Positions 20,192 through 27,708 of a DNA stretch of 64,000 nucleotides are shown here, piece by piece (the stretch's first letter is position 1; every line of letters starts with the position of its first letter). Origin of the DNA: Butyrivibrio fibrisolvens 16/4 (GTDB taxonomy: Bacteria > Bacillota > Clostridia > Lachnospirales > Lachnospiraceae). Location of the stretch: the NCBI GenBank assembly GCA_000209815.1, contig FP929036.1, forward strand, positions 2,741,380 through 2,805,379, read 5' to 3'. Made by a program: the position numbers and the translations under genes. The notes under the pieces are model-generated. The model was not told the origin of the DNA. It did not search any database and saw nothing but the letters and a program-made list of their open reading frames with translations.

Positions 20192-20198
20192 TCTGTAG

Positions 20199-20271
20199 TG
20201 CGCGACCAGGGGTTCGAACCCTGGACACCCTGATTAAGAGTCAGGTGCTCTGCCAGCTGAGCTAGTCGCGC
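20199..20271 (-). tRNA. tRNA-Lys (CTT)
   Basis: Cloverleaf on the minus strand: acceptor GCGCGAC / GTCGCGC, D arm with AGCTCAGCTGG, anticodon stem CCTGA / TCAGG with loop CTCTTAA (anticodon CTT), and T arm CCAGGGTTCGAACCCTGG. Discriminator A; CCA is not encoded. 73 bases, with its own terminator. Confidence 0.96.
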
Positions 20272-20492: not shown

Positions 20493-22048
20493 TTATATGT
20501 TTGCAAAAAGTTTTTCTATTTCTTCTGCACTCATTACTCTATTTGGATCTGTTAAGTCTACTCCAACATCTGGAATTACTATTTCTTCTGCTTTATCTTC
20601 TGCTTGAGGTTCAGGCTCTGGTTCTGGAGCAGCTTCTGGTTCTTCTTCAGCAGGACCACCAACTTCTTCAAGCAACGCATCCAAATCCACACCATCTGCA
20701 GATTCTGTAGACTCTAACACTATTTCTTCTGCTGGTGCTCCCTCCGGCTCGGCCTCTAGTACTATCTCTTCTGCTGGCGCTTCCTCCGGTTCGGCCTCTA
20801 GTACTATCTCTTCTGCTGGCGCTTCCTCCGGCTCGGCCTCTAGTACTATCTCTTCTGCTGGCTCTTCCTCTGGCTCTGCCTCTAGTACTATCTCCTCCGC
20901 TGGCGCTTCCTCTGGCTGGGCTTCCATTGCTATTTCCTCTGCCACTGGTTCTTCAGCAGGCATTTCTAAACTAATTTCTTCTTCAGCAGGAGCTTCTTCT
21001 ACAGGTTCTTCTATACCTACTTCTTCCTCAGCTACTACTTCTTCAGTTGGTTCCTCTAAGCTGATTTCTTCTACTACTTCTTCTACTGGAGGTTCCAGTG
21101 AAATCTCTTCTTCAGCGGCCGGTTCCTCTACTGGCATATCTAAGTCTATACCAAGGTCTTCTACTGGTTCTGATTCATCTGCTACCGCTTCTTCTTCTAC
21201 CGGCATATCTAAATCAATACCAATATCTTCAACTGATTCTTCTACCAATGGCTCCTCTGCTAATGGTTCTTCTTCCACTGGAATATCAAGATCAATTCCT
21301 AAATCCTCAACCGACTCTTCTGCTACTGGCATTTCCTCTTCTGGTTCCGGCATTGATGGCTCAGGCATAGGCGGCTGTTCCATTGTTTGCATTGCCGGCA
21401 TAACTGGTGGAGCCATCTGAAATGGCTGTGCCATAACAGGAATTCCATTTTGAATTTTACCTTCTATATTAGAAATCTGATTTGTTAACTGAGATATCTT
21501 TTGTTGAATGTCAAAATTAGCTTCCTTAAGCATCGCTTGCTGTTTTTCAATTATCTGAGAATTATTTGATTCAATCTTTTCTCTAATTGTAAACAGCTGA
21601 TTAATAAGCTCATCATTTGAATTCATCAAAGCATCTGTATTTTCCTTGCTTCGAGAAATGGTTACTTTCGCTACGGCTTTTTGAGCATTGATAATATCTT
21701 CAGCTGGTAATGAGCTGTTCTGTTCAATATTTCTTAAACGCTCATCCATTTCATCAAAACTCTTTTTATGACGAGATAAGAAGCTTTTTGCGCATTATAT
21801 ATTTCTTCATATTTTTGTGCTTCCATATCCTTACTTTTCAAAGACATATCTAGGATTGCACTTATAAGGAAAAATAGCGCAACAATCATAAGCAGTATGC
21901 CTACCGCCATAAACATAAAATTACTGGCGAAATTAATCATGATATACAGTTCCATCACAATTAATACTGCTACTGCAATTCCCGACAGAATAACCTGGAT
22001 TTTATCCTTCGCTATCTCTCTTTGAAGTTTCTTATTATTCTCGTCCAT
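20493..22048 (-). CDS. Membrane-anchored acidic repeat protein with a FliM-like C-terminal peptide, frame broken once
   Basis: One gene of about 518 residues once a base is added to the T5 run at 21763-21767 (joining VIKKSFDEMDERLRN). N-terminus: two membrane spans (about residues 17-40 and 45-68). Then a coiled coil (ISRSKENTDALMNSNDEL to about 200), a Pro/Met-rich hinge, and a very acidic Glu/Pro region with three copies of VEDLGIDLDMPVEE and five copies of EAEPEEAPAEEIVL. It ends DPNRVMSAEEIEKLFANI, resembling the LSQEEIDALL peptide by which FliM binds CheY-P. It follows the CheC/FliY-like phosphatase gene by eight bases. I recognise no family; a scaffold role for chemotaxis signalling is inference. 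Confidence 0.7.
20713..20922 (-). repeat. Five tandem 42-base repeats in the acidic domain
   Basis: Five adjacent 42-bp units (starting at 20713, 20755, 20797, 20839, 20881) encode the 14-residue block EAEPEEAPAEEIVL with small changes. They are nearly identical at the DNA level, so copy number may vary by slippage or collapse in assembly. Confidence 0.9.
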
Positions 22049-22056
22049 TGTACCCC

Positions 22057-22668
22057 CTAGCTTTCATCCTTTTTATCAAATAGATGTACCATGTCCAATG
22101 CAAAAGAAATAGGATACAGCTGTACCATAACAGAATCTACTACTGTACCAATTTTTAAATTAAATGTTATCTTTACAAAATCTATTTCTGGCGACTCAAA
22201 TAATCTTTCAAAGATTTTTACACTTTCAACATCGATGTTATCTGTTTTTGGTGGAGAAATATCTACTACTCTATTTAATAGCTGAGACATAGATGACGCA
22301 GCACTACCCATCATCTGGTTCATAGCCTCTGATACTGCAGATAACTGGATTTCTCCTATTTCATCTGGACCTGCAACACCTGGTCCACCCATCATCAAAT
22401 CAGCTATTATTTTTACATCATTTTCTTTTAAAATTAAAACATTACTACCTGATAATCCTTTTACATAATTTATATGAACCAACACACAAACATTGTGATA
22501 GTCATCCAAAGATTCGCTTTTTCTGATTAATTCGATTTTTGGTGTTGTAATATCTACTTTTAAGTTATTTAATAATGCACTAAGTGATGTAGCAGATGAC
22601 CCCATGCTAATATTTGCAATTTCCCCAAGAGTATCCTGCTGTTCCTTAGTTAAAGTAACCTCTGCCAT
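22057..22668 (-). CDS. CheC/FliY-like CheY-P phosphatase without a SpoA domain
   Basis: 203-residue protein matching the phosphatase part of FliY, which dephosphorylates CheY-P. Two active-site copies of the S/D-x3-E-x2-N pattern are present: DTLGEIAN (N-terminal) and SAVSEAMN (C-terminal), each followed by the expected Pro (ITTP, ISPP); the first spacing is one residue longer than consensus. Whole FliY proteins continue into a FliN-like SpoA domain that docks in the flagellar switch; this one stops after DMVHLFDKKDES. AGGAGGG before the ATG. First gene of a two-gene operon with the membrane-anchored acidic protein. No flagellar genes are nearby. Confidence 0.82.
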   Translation of the reverse strand: MAEVTLTKEQQDTLGEIANISMGSSATSLSALLNNLKVDITTPKIELIRKSESLDDYHNVCVLVHINYVKGLSGSNVLILKENDVKIIADLMMGGPGVAGPDEIGEIQLSAVSEAMNQMMGSAASSMSQLLNRVVDISPPKTDNIDVESVKIFERLFESPEIDFVKITFNLKIGTVVDSVMVQLYPISFALDMVHLFDKKDES

Positions 22669-22901: not shown

Positions 22902-22906
22902 AAAAA

Positions 22907-22980
22907 TGTTCGAGATGGGATTCGAACCCACGACCTTCCGCTTAGGAGGCGGACGCTCTATCCAGCTGAGCTACTCAAAC
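22907..22980 (-). tRNA. tRNA-Arg (CCT)
   Basis: Cloverleaf on the minus strand: acceptor GTTTGAG / CTCGAAC (one wobble), D arm AGCTCAGCTGG, anticodon stem TCCGC / GCGGA with loop CTCCTAA (anticodon CCT), T arm GTGGGTTCGAATCCCAT. Discriminator A; CCA not encoded. 74 bases. Confidence 0.95.
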
Positions 22981-23091
22981 ATACCGATGTAAATTCACAA
23001 CTATTAGATTTTAATCCACTAGATGAGAAAAATCAAGGTTACAATGTAGTAGCAAAAGCTACTACATTGTAGTATTTTTATAGCTCATATA

Positions 23092-23963
23092 CTAATCAAA
23101 TAATACTGTTCCCTGTAACCAAATAATTCCTTTGAATCTTCTGCCAACTGTAGGCTCACCAAATAAATCCTTTTTATTTATGCAAACCTCTAATATTACG
23201 TCATTACTTTCAACTGTCATCAGACATAGCTCTTCCATTGTAAGATGATTTACCACATATCTTACATCAAGAATATCACCTAAAATCTCGTATTTATCAT
23301 TTTCTATACCGTAAGGCATGAAGAAAGTTGTAACTACACTAAAAATGTCCTCTCTAGTTACACGACGAGAAATTTTTTGATATAAATCAATCTCATCCAT
23401 TGTAAGACTTTCTAATGCTTCTTCATTTCCCTCTCTGGCCTGCTCTACTAAGCTTATACGCTTTTGATTATTCATTTTTTCCTTAATACGACTTTTCTCA
23501 TTATCATATACAGGTAAAATGATTTTTCCATCTGTAGAAAGGGCTGCTAATCTGATATCTCTATTTGAAGATTTTCCATCTATAATATTTTTCTAAGAAA
23601 CTCACCCATGTTCTGCAACTGAAAAATAAGATTAACTCCTAACCTTATTTCATCGCACATAACATGATAATTATCTTTATCAGTCTGCTTTATTACTTCC
23701 ACATCATTATTAATGGAAATCTTTTGACCGTAAAATGTAGGATAATAATAATCTAATATGAATTCATCATTTTCATTATAGACACCTCTAAGTACAAGAC
23801 CTACATTATCACAAACATTATATCTTAGCTCAACAAATTGATTACCCTCTAAATCAATTGCTGATTCCTGGTATTCAGGTCTCAACATAATTTCTTTGAG
23901 TAATTCTTCAAGTGCATCTTTATTCAGTTTGCTAAAACCAATTGCTGGCATATATTTATGCAT
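23092..23963 (-). CDS. DUF3881 family protein, frame broken once
   Basis: Protein of the DUF3881 family, known almost only from Lachnospiraceae, function unknown. It begins MHKYMPAIGFSKLNKDALEELL. The frame is lost at the T5 run 23586-23590; one extra base joins FLRKNIIDGKSSNRDIRLAAL and continues through EKMNNQKRISLVEQAREGNEEALESL to FKGIIWLQGTVLFD, giving about 290 residues. Soluble, no signal peptide or membrane segment. The start overlaps the DUF4446 stop by one base, so the two are coupled with parB upstream. Confidence 0.78.
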
Positions 23964-24457
23964 TAATTACCACCTAAAGCTTGTTCTAAAGCCTGCTCTT
24001 CTTCTTCAGCAAGCTGGATTATAGAATTTCCATCTATAATTTCCTTAACATAAGTATAACATCCTTCACGAGAATGCATAGCATTAATTATGAATCCTGA
24101 ATTCTTTTCATTTAACATACAAAGAGAAAAACTAAGTTTTCCTCCCATCTCATTAAATGCATCATATTTAACAAGTCCAATCTTCTGGAAACATCCCTGC
24201 ATATTTTTAAAGATTGTATCAATATTTCTTTCGTTGCTGGCATTTGCTTCTATAAGCTCATCAACCTGCTCTAATCTATAAACTAATGTGTCCTCTAAAG
24301 ATCTAGCTGTACTTCCTTGCATGAAGATTTTGTATCTCTTTTTAAGTTTTGCCATCTGTACGATGAAAACTATTAAAAGAATCATCATAATTAGAACTAG
24401 TGCTGCAAGTCCTATTACCACGTAGTCTGAACTAAATCCTAAATATTGCTCTATCAT
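23963..24457 (-). CDS. DUF4446 membrane protein
   Basis: 164-residue protein of the DUF4446 family, commonly next to parA-parB in clostridia. One N-terminal membrane span (VVIGLAALVLIMMILLIVFIV, about residues 13-33) is followed by a basic stop (KLKKRYK), a coiled coil, and a soluble domain with VKYDAFNEMGGKLSFSLCML and NGFIINAMHSREGCYTYVKE-type segments that mark the family. Function unknown. It lies 35 bases downstream of parB and overlaps the DUF3881 gene. Confidence 0.85.
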   Translation of the reverse strand: MIEQYLGFSSDYVVIGLAALVLIMMILLIVFIVQMAKLKKRYKIFMQGSTARSLEDTLVYRLEQVDELIEANASNERNIDTIFKNMQGCFQKIGLVKYDAFNEMGGKLSFSLCMLNEKNSGFIINAMHSREGCYTYVKEIIDGNSIIQLAEEEEQALEQALGGN

Positions 24458-24491
24458 TTATGCTCCTTATATTGTTCTATCGAACATATGT

Positions 24492-25383
24492 TTATTTTAT
24501 ACTTTCTAGCAAATCTACTATTCTATTTAACTCATCCTGAGAATAGTACTCAATCTCTAATCTTCCTGTCTTATTATCCTTGGCATTAATATAAACCTTT
24601 GTACCAAGTACACCTTTAAGCTTTTCCTGTGTCTGCTCATATACAGCCACAAGCTGTGGATCAATCTCAGCAGACTTTCCTTTTTATCTGCATTCTTATC
24701 GTTGATTAACTTCTTTACTTCACGCTCTACATCACGAACAGACATCTTCTGATCAAATGCACGCTCAGCAAATTCATACTGCTTGTCTGGATCTGCAATA
24801 GCAAGCATAGCTCTAGCATGACCAGTAGTAAGTTTGTCATCGACAATCATTTCCTGGACACGCTTATCAAGCTTAAGTAATCTAAGAGCATTTGTAATAG
24901 TAGTTCTACTCTTAGACACCCTTTCAGCTACCTCATCCTGTTTTAATTTAAACTCATCGATAAGTCTAGCAAATGCTAAAGCCTCTTCGATTGGGTTTAA
25001 CTGTTCACGCTGAATATTATCGATAAGTGAAATCTCAACAAACTCCTGCTCGCTGAGTTTCATGATGATTACAGGAACTTCTTTAAAACCAGCAAGTCTT
25101 GCTGCTCTCCATCTACGCTCACCACCGATAATCTCATAATATTTTCCACGGTCCTGAACGATTAATGGATTGATAATTCCATGTATCTTTATATTCTCTG
25201 CTAATTCCTGTAGCTTATCTTCGTCAAAGTTTTTCTAGGCTGAAGCTTATTAGGCTCAACCTTATTAATATCTACATTGACAGGAGCACCATGCTGCTCA
25301 GGATTAACAGCAACAATTCCCTCTTCTTTCTTTACAATAAGAGAATCTAATCCCTTACCAAGACCTCCCTTTTTAGTAGCCAT
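24492..25383 (-). CDS. parB: Chromosome partitioning protein ParB (Spo0J), frame broken twice
   Basis: ParB binds parS, spreads as a CTP-dependent clamp and loads SMC. N-terminus KKGGLGKGLDSLI contacts ParA. Two T5 runs (25230-25234 and 24681-24685) break the frame; adding a base at each restores LQPRKNFDEDKLQEL, the GERRWRAARLAG CTP/spreading motif, the helix-turn-helix (LKQDEVAERVSKSRTTITNAL) and the C-terminal dimer region ending DELNRIVDLLESIK at 24492. About 297 residues. It follows parA with a two-base gap. Two parS sites lie upstream. Confidence 0.94.
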
Positions 25384-25385
25384 AA

Positions 25386-26156
25386 TTAGATATCCTTTCT
25401 CCCGATTATTTCTTTTGCAAGATTACGATAGCTCTCTGCACCTGTAGACTTAGAATCATATAAATTAATTGGAAGTCCATGTGATGGAGCCTCTGCAAGT
25501 CTAACATTTCTAGGAATAATAGTCTGATATACTGTTGCATTAAGATTATTCTTTACAGTATCAACTACATCAGAAGAAAGATTTGTTCTAGCATCATACA
25601 TTGTAAATACAACACCATCAATCTTAAGCTTAGAGTTAAGTCTTTCCTGAACAAGATCAATAGTATGAATCAGCTGACTAATTCCTTCCAAAGCATAGTA
25701 CTCACACTGAATAGGAACAAGTACAGAATCAGCTGTAGTCATAGCATTGATTGTAAGCATATTAAGTGAAGGAGGACAATCTATAATTACATAATCAAAA
25801 TCATCCTTTACATAATCAACAGCGTTTCTAAGGATATATTCCTTTTCATTGATTCCAAGAAGCTCAATTTCGGCACCTGCTAAATCAACATTTGATGGAA
25901 TAATTGTAAGATTAGGTATATTTTCTACCTTATACATACATTCCTTAATGCTGCACTGATCTAAAACTAAATCATAAACAGTATTCTCACATTCTTCCTT
26001 ATCTAAACCGAGACCACTTGTAGCATTTCCCTGTGGATCAGTATCGATAACAAGAACTTTCTTTCCAGCCTCTGCTAAGCAAGCTGATAGATTAATGCTA
26101 GTAGTAGTTTTACCAACGCCACCCTTCTGGTTGGCAATTGCAATTACTCTCTTCAT
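25386..26156 (-). CDS. parA: Chromosome partitioning ATPase ParA (Soj)
   Basis: Deviant Walker ATPase that works with ParB in origin segregation and, in Bacillus, regulates DnaA. KRVIAIANQKGGVGKTTTS carries the deviant Walker A (KGGVGKTT); VIDTDPQGNATSGLG, DDFDYVIIDCPPSLN and RLAEAPSHGLPINLYD are the remaining signature motifs. 256 residues, intact. First gene of parA-parB, with two parS sites 158-275 bases upstream. Confidence 0.96.
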   Translation of the reverse strand: MKRVIAIANQKGGVGKTTTSINLSACLAEAGKKVLVIDTDPQGNATSGLGLDKEECENTVYDLVLDQCSIKECMYKVENIPNLTIIPSNVDLAGAEIELLGINEKEYILRNAVDYVKDDFDYVIIDCPPSLNMLTINAMTTADSVLVPIQCEYYALEGISQLIHTIDLVQERLNSKLKIDGVVFTMYDARTNLSSDVVDTVKNNLNATVYQTIIPRNVRLAEAPSHGLPINLYDSKSTGAESYRNLAKEIIGRKDI

Positions 26157-26391: not shown

Positions 26392-26964
26392 TTAAATAGC
26401 ATGATTCACGCAAAATGTTTCACGTGAAACATATCTAAATCTAGTTTGTAAAACATTATATAGTAGAAATAATTTTTCTAATTCCATCTGAGCACGGTAA
26501 GGATCTAATAAAATTAGATCTTTTATATTAGATAAGCTGCCAATCAAATCAGAATTTGGAATATCCAATTGATTATCAGAAGTATTTTCAAAACCATGTT
26601 CTACTATTGGTTCTTCAATTACTTTTTCTTCTACAACAGGTTTATTTTCATTAACACAATTAGCAAGTAAAGTATTTATTTCTGTTAATCTGCTATCGTA
26701 AAACTTCATTTTTTGAGATTTCTTATCTTTCTCATTATTAAGTTCTACAAGGTACTCTCTTATTTCAGCAGCTTTTTCATTATTTTTTGCATTTAAGTCT
26801 CTAGGAGTAAACTCCTTAAAATAAGATTCATTAGATTCTTCAAGAAGATTAAGGAATTTATTTTCTTCCTTTATCTTAGTTTCTAATAAATCCATATCCT
26901 CTTTTAATTGAATTTTATTGGAAATTAGTTCTTCCTGATATTTTTTTAGGAAGTCTTTAACCAT
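26392..26964 (-). CDS. Unrecognised coiled-coil protein carrying a parS site in its 3' end
   Basis: 190 residues, not recognised. Residues about 5-115 are highly charged and predicted coiled coil (KKYQEELISNKIQLKEDMD, VELNNEKDKKSQKMKF); then an acidic linker (PVVEEKVIEEPIVEHG) and a helical C-terminal segment (IKDLILLDPYRAQMELEKL). No signal or membrane segment. GGGGGAA precedes the ATG at 26964. The last codons run through parS site 2, so part of the C-terminus (VSRET) is dictated by that site. It lies between rsmG and parA; function unknown. Confidence 0.6.
   Translation of the reverse strand: MVKDFLKKYQEELISNKIQLKEDMDLLETKIKEENKFLNLLEESNESYFKEFTPRDLNAKNNEKAAEIREYLVELNNEKDKKSQKMKFYDSRLTEINTLLANCVNENKPVVEEKVIEEPIVEHGFENTSDNQLDIPNSDLIGSLSNIKDLILLDPYRAQMELEKLFLLYNVLQTRFRYVSRETFCVNHAI
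26416..26431. promoter_or_regulatory. parS site 2, inside a coding sequence
   Basis: A second perfect TGTTTCACGTGAAACA, 102 bp from the first, within the 3' end of the coiled-coil gene. Confidence 0.96.
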
Positions 26965-27027: not shown

Positions 27028-27708
27028 CTAGGATACGCCTTTGGAGTATTTTTTCTTTTTTATAATAAGAAAAGATCTGCTAATATCTGTATCTGGTAGA
27101 GAAAAATAAACTGATTTACTTAAGTTACCACCAAGCTTTTTAATCGCTCCACCTGATTCTTCTATTTCAGATTGTATATCACCAGACTTATAACTAATAA
27201 AGTATCCGCCTATATTAACGAGTGGTAAACAATACTCTGATAAAGTAGAAATATTAGCTACAGCTCTAGATACAACTAAATCAAAATTTTCTCTATATAA
27301 TTTATTACGTCCTGCTTCTTCTGCTCTGGCATGTATTAAAGTGACATTATTAAGACCTAAAGCATCTACTACCTCTTGTAAAAACTTAATACGTTTATTA
27401 AGAGAATCAATTAATGTAAATTGTAATGAAGGAAATGCAATAGCCATAGGTATACCTGGAAAACCAGCTCCAGTTCCTAAATCACAAACTGTTTTAACTG
27501 AATCAGGTAGTACTGTACATATTGATAAACTATCTGCAAAATGTTTTATGATAACTTCATCAAACTCAGTAATAGCAGTAAGGTTCATTACCTTATTCTT
27601 TTCTACTAATAATTCGTAAAATAAATCTAACTGTGAAATCTGCTTCTCTATTAATGCAAAATTCCAGCTTGATAAAGTATTAATTAAATATGAATAATCT
27701 CTACTCAT
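27028..27708 (-). CDS. rsmG: 16S rRNA (guanine-527-N7)-methyltransferase
   Basis: RsmG (GidB) makes m7G527 in 16S rRNA; loss gives low-level streptomycin resistance in other bacteria. LLVEKNKVMNLTAITEFDEVIIKHFADSL, the SAM motif VCDLGTGAGFPGIPMAI, TLIDSLNKRIKFLQEV and RAVANISTLSEYCLPLV are family signatures. 226 residues, intact. Follows mnmG on the minus strand, as in most Firmicutes. Confidence 0.95.
   Translation of the reverse strand: MSRDYSYLINTLSSWNFALIEKQISQLDLFYELLVEKNKVMNLTAITEFDEVIIKHFADSLSICTVLPDSVKTVCDLGTGAGFPGIPMAIAFPSLQFTLIDSLNKRIKFLQEVVDALGLNNVTLIHARAEEAGRNKLYRENFDLVVSRAVANISTLSEYCLPLVNIGGYFISYKSGDIQSEIEESGGAIKKLGGNLSKSVYFSLPDTDISRSFLIIKKKKYSKGVS

Follow-up and report, generated by a model that had tools for sequence, protein, structure and literature searches.

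In current models of chemotaxis, the motor (through FliM or FliY) and the phosphatases are the main partners of phosphorylated CheY (CheY-P). CheZ of E. coli is a single soluble protein, a phosphatase aided by the CheY-binding peptide that its flexible arm bears, while ChePep is an acidic, repetitive protein with an N-terminal receiver domain, and the polar landmark proteins HubP and FimV carry LysM and FimV domains. FliM and FliY dock CheY-P through an established helix, the EIDALL element, which binds the groove of helices alpha4 and alpha5 (PMC9126983). In Campylobacterota, ChePep and CheO are additional, lineage-restricted chemotaxis proteins that affect the switching of the motor, and CheO contacts both chemotaxis and switch proteins (PMC9665402). 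Here we analyze two adjacent genes in a 64,000-nt stretch of the genome of Butyrivibrio fibrisolvens 16/4 (contig FP929036.1, positions 2,741,380 to 2,805,379), hereafter the window, whose own numbering is used below. Gene 1 (22057-22668, minus strand; 203 amino acids) is, by open reading frame (ORF) call and Pfam and NCBIfam matches, a standalone CheC-family phosphatase of the FliY type, and gene 2 (20493-22048, minus strand), delimited from its ORFs, the loci of relatives and tblastn, encodes a membrane-anchored protein with a FliM-type C-terminal peptide. On balance, we favor the reading that gene 2 is a membrane-tethered docking arm for CheY-P, paired in Pseudobutyrivibrio with gene 1 as a dedicated phosphatase.

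Gene 1 resembles FliY in its CheC domain, in possessing both active sites and in passing the NCBIfam cut-off, and the gene 2 peptide is like the N-terminal LSQDEINALL of FliY. Gene 1 differs from FliY in lacking this N-terminal peptide and the SpoA domain and in lying outside both the flagellar operon and the main FliY group of the tree; the peptide here forms the C-terminus of a separate membrane protein. Like CheC, gene 1 consists of one CheC domain of about 200 amino acids, has two active sites and lacks a switch-docking domain, but it is closer to FliY than to the CheC of its own genome. The catalytic fold of gene 1 is unrelated to that of CheZ, and gene 2 has a membrane anchor whereas CheZ has none. 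Compared by description only, gene 2 differs from ChePep and CheO in its membrane hairpin and its FliM-type peptides; no receiver domain was found by Pfam in gene 2 or in the scanned relatives of gene 2 type (L093 and L210). It also differs from HubP and FimV, since neither gene 2 nor its scanned relatives have a Pfam match to LysM or FimV domains. With the FliM N-terminal peptide (PMC9126983), gene 2 shares a hydrophobic-Ser-x-x-E-I-x-x-L-L/F helix that ends a flexible tether, whereas the gene 2 version is C-terminal, follows DPN(K/R), often occurs in several copies and belongs to a membrane scaffold and not to the N-terminus of a switch protein.

In the mechanism that we propose, the membrane hairpin and coiled coil of gene 2 would keep a long, disordered linker on the cytoplasmic side; at the end of this linker, an amphipathic hydrophobic-Ser-x-(D/E)-E-I-x-x-L-F peptide would bind the FliM-binding groove of CheY-P. 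Gene 1 would supply a free CheC/FliY-type CheY-P phosphatase that has neither the CheY-P-catching peptide nor the switch-docking SpoA domain of FliY. In Pseudobutyrivibrio both proteins are probably made from one operon, and CheY-P could be caught at the membrane and dephosphorylated away from the motor, so that the two proteins would form a membrane-bound, signal-terminating sink. The data themselves show gene content, conservation, pairing, co-occurrence with FliM, peptide similarity and active-site residues, whereas we infer CheY-P binding, phosphatase activity, cooperation and cytoplasmic orientation. A phosphate sink or a membrane or polar tether for CheY is plausible.

The C-terminal peptide of gene 2

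A profile of the N-terminal part of gene 2 finds 56 loci in named genomes (61 loci were processed, of which L134 and L135 have no gene 2 match and L130, L132 and L133 fall outside the counts for L067-L122). The family shares one plan, consisting of a membrane hairpin, a coiled coil with the conserved segment AQKAVAKVTISRSKENTDALMNSND, a long Glu/Pro/Ala linker and a terminal peptide. In the window, all on the minus strand, the two transmembrane helices of the hairpin are placed at 21848-21997 from the sequence and the model of an intact relative (L069), with the topology inferred; the most conserved cytoplasmic helix segment, SLPAEDIINAQKAVAKVTISRSKENTDALMNSNDELINQ, is placed by alignments at 21597-21713; and a Glu/Pro-rich linker, predicted to be disordered from the low confidence of the L069 model, occupies 20577-21452. 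The linker varies in length and sequence among relatives. The AlphaFold2 model of L069 contains helices at residues 2-39, 44-112 and 116-202 and a terminal helix at 475-484, and residues 203-425 and 432-463 score below 50 in the predicted local distance difference test (pLDDT); its predicted template modeling score (pTM) is 0.29, this low overall confidence being due to the linker. Lys residues at both ends of the hairpin hint at a cytoplasmic arm. The two membrane helices, the acidic linker and the FliM-like C-terminus listed in the preliminary description are all present, as is the long helix. The Pseudobutyrivibrio linker, including that of the window, also has DLG(I/L)DLD motifs that recur along it, and about 55-65 residues before the C-terminus of gene 2 there is a DLDALLEEVGG element, which the L069 model renders as a short helix; both are possible degenerate docking elements.

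Gene 2 terminates in MSAEEIEKLFANI. Its C-terminal peptide, IPDVGVDLTDPNRVMSAEEIEKLFANI (20496-20576, minus strand; core MSAEEIEKLF), is defined by alignment, profile and the L069 model, and it fits the hydrophobic-S-x-x-E-I-x-x-L-L/F helical core. The family consensus is DPN(K/R)-x-(M/L)(S/T)-(P/A)-(D/E)-(D/E)-I-x-x-(L/M)-(F/L/I). Across 25 sequences, the last 27 residues of gene 2 include 20 invariant columns, in contrast to the variable linker. Every complete C-terminus ends in the peptide, namely 22 of 22 in L067-L091 (25 loci, of which contig ends truncate three) and 24 of 24 in L092-L122 (31 loci, six of them truncated; the tail of L116 is out of frame, and L122 has no N-terminal part in this frame). 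With a loose pattern, one copy of the peptide was counted in 21 of 22 Pseudobutyrivibrio gene 2 proteins and three in the remaining one (L091), while the 24 distant gene 2 proteins have between one and six copies.

A profile built solely from gene 2 peptides was scored against 28,674 ten-residue stretches from 125 ORFs of the window and of 30 kb of the genome's own flagellar and chemotaxis region. The N-terminus of the own FliY gives the top score outside gene 2 (14.9, the next being 10.8), and among the loci that bear FliM and FliY, the FliY peptide tops the ranking in 7/7 and the FliM peptide is among the top five in 6/7. The 20 invariant columns and the FliY N-terminus as the best outside match indicate that the likeness exceeds chance, and the assignment of a C-terminal FliM-type peptide to gene 2 is well supported by the sequence comparisons. 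Much the same peptide occurs inside some FliYs, FliY being a known CheY-P receptor. Three FliYs carry added peptides of the CheY-binding type between CheC and SpoA (L197:1795-3276, L198:916-2343 and L199:740-2152, all minus strand), with three copies of the SNKMMSQEEIEALLAG type in L197, one LSPEEIAALVAG in L198 and weaker ones in L199.

Gene 1 and its pairing with gene 2

Gene 1 matches the Pfam CheC family with 104.6 bits, and its best NCBIfam match is FliY (238 bits, cut-off 218), where it covers profile positions 31-223 of 376, which are the CheC part. No SpoA (FliMN_C) domain was found by Pfam and NCBIfam scans in gene 1 or in either gene 2 ORF, and gene 1 holds both D/S-x3-E-x2-N active sites, in agreement with the preliminary description on both points. 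Its N-terminus reads MAEVTLTKEQQDTLGEIANIS and, unlike that of the own FliY (LSQDEINALL), has no EIDALL-type CheY-binding peptide. The active-site residues DEN/SEN are kept in all 27 orthologues measured (27 of 28 loci, L030 not being caught by the search pattern), and those of the FliY CheC domain in 21/21. Among solved structures the nearest in sequence is 4hyn, whose entry describes a CheC / FliN fusion protein. Mean pairwise identity is 0.921 for gene 1 (27 sequences) versus 0.889 for the FliY CheC domain (21 sequences), and the median ratio of nonsynonymous to synonymous substitution rates (dN/dS) is 0.039 versus 0.049, with synonymous sites near saturation. Gene 1 is constrained at least as strongly as the FliY CheC domain.

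The preliminary description had read the two genes as a FliY split into its parts. The genome, searched as one contig of 3.16 Mb, contains a complete FliY (a 403-amino-acid ORF bearing SpoA), a CheC and a FliM, with both SpoA matches at 1.93 Mb; as FliY and CheC are also present, gene 1 is the third CheC-family protein of the genome. A cheD-like ORF adjoins the own CheC, and a CheY-like ORF adjoins the own FliY (both named by eye). Gene 1 shares 53% identity with the CheC domain of the own FliY and 27% with the own CheC. A maximum-likelihood tree was built from 44 CheC domains (17 standalone and 27 from FliY). In it, 24 of the 27 FliYs cluster with a support of 98/98, the own FliY inside this cluster and gene 1 outside it, and the branch dividing the gene 1 side from the FliY side has a support of 98/93. 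The orthologue group of gene 1 (90/98) and a second standalone group made up of L101 and L263-L268 (95/88) both fall on the gene 1 side. L059 and the three FliYs with added peptides (L197-L199) form a long-branch cluster with a long stem on the gene 1 side of the midpoint, and the standalone rows L058 and L269 are placed beside the FliY group, the positions of the long-branched rows L059, L268, L269 and L032 being unsure. Because the tree groups gene 1 with other standalone proteins and outside the main FliY group, gene 1 looks like an old standalone paralogue and not the product of a fresh split. We reject a literal split of FliY, because the genome has an intact FliY and gene 1 falls outside the main FliY group. 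G540 contains a long-branched standalone relative (43% identical to gene 1) that adjoins a cheY-like ORF.

The pairing of the two genes, which the preliminary description had asked to be checked, is conserved. Gene 1 was found in 27 of the 28 same-genus genomes searched besides its own, with identities of 71-98%, and the sole genome without it (G027, 77% complete) gave no CheC-family match whatever. Gene 2 lies directly after gene 1 in 28/28 loci of the genus (own and 27 others), and the same pairing is seen in the 25 named Pseudobutyrivibrio loci L067-L091, which are largely the same genomes and not an independent set. The spacing in the window is 8 bases (22049-22056), as described earlier, and in Pseudobutyrivibrio gene 1 is positioned between DUF3881 and gene 2. 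In L101, which belongs to another lineage, a standalone gene follows 31 bases after gene 2, so that the order is reversed, and the neighborhood is different. In L092, a locus labeled Pseudobutyrivibrio and 54% similar, gene 1 is not at this site. The preliminary description had held that a SpoA-bearing FliY elsewhere in the genome together with a lack of conserved pairing would speak against it; such a FliY is present, but the pairing is conserved.

Peptide arrays and flagella in Lachnospiraceae

Co-occurrence with flagella was assessed in one draw of 250 Lachnospiraceae genomes, each at least 90% complete, in which 124 have a FliM match at E ≤ 0.001 (122 of them above the family cut-off). The gene 2 N-terminal profile matches 32 genomes, 32/32 of them FliM-positive (Fisher p 1.8e-11), and the peptide at E ≤ 1e-4 matches 43 genomes, 43/43 of them FliM-positive (Fisher p 9.3e-16), both values being uncorrected for genome relatedness, which inflates them. 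Peptide matches with E from 1e-4 to 0.01 are not enriched as a set (9/13 FliM-positive, p 0.17); three of the weaker matches (G358, G400 and G466) are FliY linkers, and the four FliM-negative ones, in ORFs of 632-673 amino acids, look like chance matches. Of 294 genomes drawn from across the order, 25 match at E ≤ 1e-4, and all 25 belong to the same family. These counts bear on another reading of the acidic arm, as a protein that is structural, faces the wall or lies at the surface, and whose likeness to FliM arose by convergence without CheY binding. The peptide is short, and Glu/Pro-rich low-complexity arms are common in surface proteins, but the presence of FliM in every one of the 43 genomes with a strong peptide match argues against such a protein; the Lys-containing ends of the hairpin point to a cytoplasmic arm, and no surface-anchoring domain was found by Pfam in gene 2 or in the scanned array relatives. 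We regard this explanation as very unlikely.

The peptide is also present in a second array protein of other genera, which the gene 2 N-terminal profile does not match. This protein has repeated DPNKxLSADEIAALFA-type peptides (13 copies in L202 by the loose pattern), Lys-rich stretches and a C-terminal domain. Twenty loci were chosen and fetched, eight of which are of this type (L200, L201, L203, L204, L205 and L208, also L202 and L216). A cheV gene lies near the array gene in 6/8 loci, the other two being truncated, and the order cheV-(other ORF)-array-hisH is found in 5/6 cheV loci (hisH named by eye), while the L201 stretch ends at the array. The CheV of L200 consists of a CheW-like and a receiver domain according to a Pfam scan. 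That different proteins of FliM-positive genomes share the peptide, one of them beside cheV, is the best evidence that its ligand belongs to chemotaxis, and a chemotaxis role is supported both by co-occurrence with FliM and by the linkage between cheV and the second array protein in relatives. The second array gene usually precedes hisH/hisF (by eye). A 460-amino-acid ORF with no Pfam match above the cut-off (L209:2174-3553, plus strand) has four copies of the DPNHVMTAEEIEALFA type at its C-terminal end.

More tentatively, motile Lachnospiraceae may possess a class of chemotaxis component in which FliM/FliY-type CheY-P-binding peptides form arrays that are anchored in the membrane and often multivalent, on two or more scaffolds, one at the parAB locus and one beside cheV, and that buffer or terminate CheY-P away from the motor, with one such array having captured a phosphatase in Pseudobutyrivibrio. 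In the other motile Lachnospiraceae, the same or the cheV-adjacent scaffold with its several peptides would act mainly as a multivalent buffer of CheY-P (or of the receiver domain of CheV). Among the matches listed in the open PMC literature (titles and abstract openings, subscription papers being outside the scope), none describes such peptide arrays. Gene 2 could instead be a polar or envelope organizer of the HubP/PopZ kind beside parAB, whose peptides recruit a partner other than CheY, be it a switch component, CheV or a protein for partition or flagellar placement, with gene 1 as a phosphatase that shares the operon incidentally. Its conserved site after parA-parB-DUF4446-DUF3881 agrees with this, each of these neighbor clusters being present in 40-41 of the 56 gene 2 loci (parA and parB named by eye) in lists from a greedy ORF picker, which can lose a real gene beneath a longer antisense ORF and hid gene 1 in L101; so do the membrane hairpin, the long helix and the long acidic disordered linker, and the several peptide copies would fit a multivalent hub. 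However, the peptide is specifically like the CheY-binding element of FliM/FliY and also occurs inside some FliYs, and the other array proteins adjoin cheV and not parAB, so that we consider an organizer of this kind unlikely.

Several results weigh against a docking arm with a dedicated phosphatase. Besides the inflation of the Fisher values, a strong peptide match is missing in 81 of the 124 FliM-positive genomes, so the array is no general need of flagella. The N-terminal peptide of FliM scores clearly below that of FliY in the peptide profile, and a PDB profile search with the peptide returned no FliM, FliY or CheY-complex chain, the matches being unrelated chains with a designed repeat as the best. 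No sigma-28-like motility promoter was found above shuffles 5' of gene 1 in the window or in the 20 of 25 loci that the start-finding pattern matched (five were unmatched); the scan has little power, since it picked up only one good site in the flagellar stretches of the genome itself. Beyond the core genus set, gene 1 adjoins gene 2 in 1 of 31 loci (L092-L122, where L108 has 45 bases upstream and six loci end within gene 2), so gene 2 probably functions without gene 1 in most hosts. Among 80 FliM-positive genomes probed, standalone relatives with at least 55% identity were found in 4/46 array-positive versus 1/34 array-negative genomes, and in 5/46 versus 3/34 when weaker relatives are included; relatives of gene 1 are rare across the family, and their link to arrays is weak.

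The distant loci also bear on the explanation that the two genes are functionally separate, gene 1 being an extra cytosolic CheC-like phosphatase and gene 2 an unrelated CheY-P buffer or adaptor, with adjacency reflecting co-expression only. In its favor, gene 1 was not found beside gene 2 in 30 of the 31 distant loci and has standalone relatives elsewhere, one of them by a cheY-like ORF. Adjacency is nonetheless constant through the genus and recurs in reversed order in L101, and we judge two separate functions to be improbable. If the docking arm paired with a phosphatase is correct, an off-motor scaffold offering 1-13 motor-like docking peptides would compete as a sink and set both the threshold of switching and its timing. 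It would also point to a way in which Lachnospiraceae of the gut and rumen adjust their motility. The docking prediction lends itself to direct testing, and the peptide concerned is short.

Frame breaks and the surrounding locus

The preliminary description had read gene 2 as one gene. In the window assembly it consists of two overlapping ORFs (21734-22048 and 20493-21749), and tblastn with an intact relative as the query places the frame switch near 21,761-21,767, within a frame-change site at 21734-21770 (minus strand) delimited by the ORF list and tblastn. In relatives gene 2 is a single frame of 435-594 amino acids, complete in 24/26 same-genus loci, with the remaining two truncated by contig ends. 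The break is probably a sequence error, because parB (twice), DUF3881 and rsmG are also broken in the same stretch and are intact in relatives (tblastn comparison of 10 neighboring proteins over about 5.4 kb), and because the N-terminus of the own FliM also sits in another frame. A programmed frameshift or a pseudogene was considered, and a sequence error is preferred; four broken conserved genes so close together speak for sequence error more than for decay. The breaks of DUF3881 and parB fall in 23092-25383, and that of rsmG is near 27,050. The N-terminus of the own FliM, with its LSQNEIDNLL peptide, is out of frame with the FliM body at about 5049-5130 of L061 (near 1.93 Mb of the genome), probably another sequence error.

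The gene pair is far from the flagellar operon, which bears out the earlier remark that it stands away from flagellar genes, and it also lies within the conserved parA-parB-DUF4446-DUF3881 locus, a context that the remark did not include. DUF3881 and DUF4446 (by Pfam) and parB and parA (by eye) are located upstream of the pair at 23092-26156 on the minus strand. A further conserved gene before parA (26392-26964; neighbor cluster 5) is present in 35 of the 56 loci, and tRNA-Lys and tRNA-Arg genes flank the gene pair at 20198-20271 and 22906-22981.

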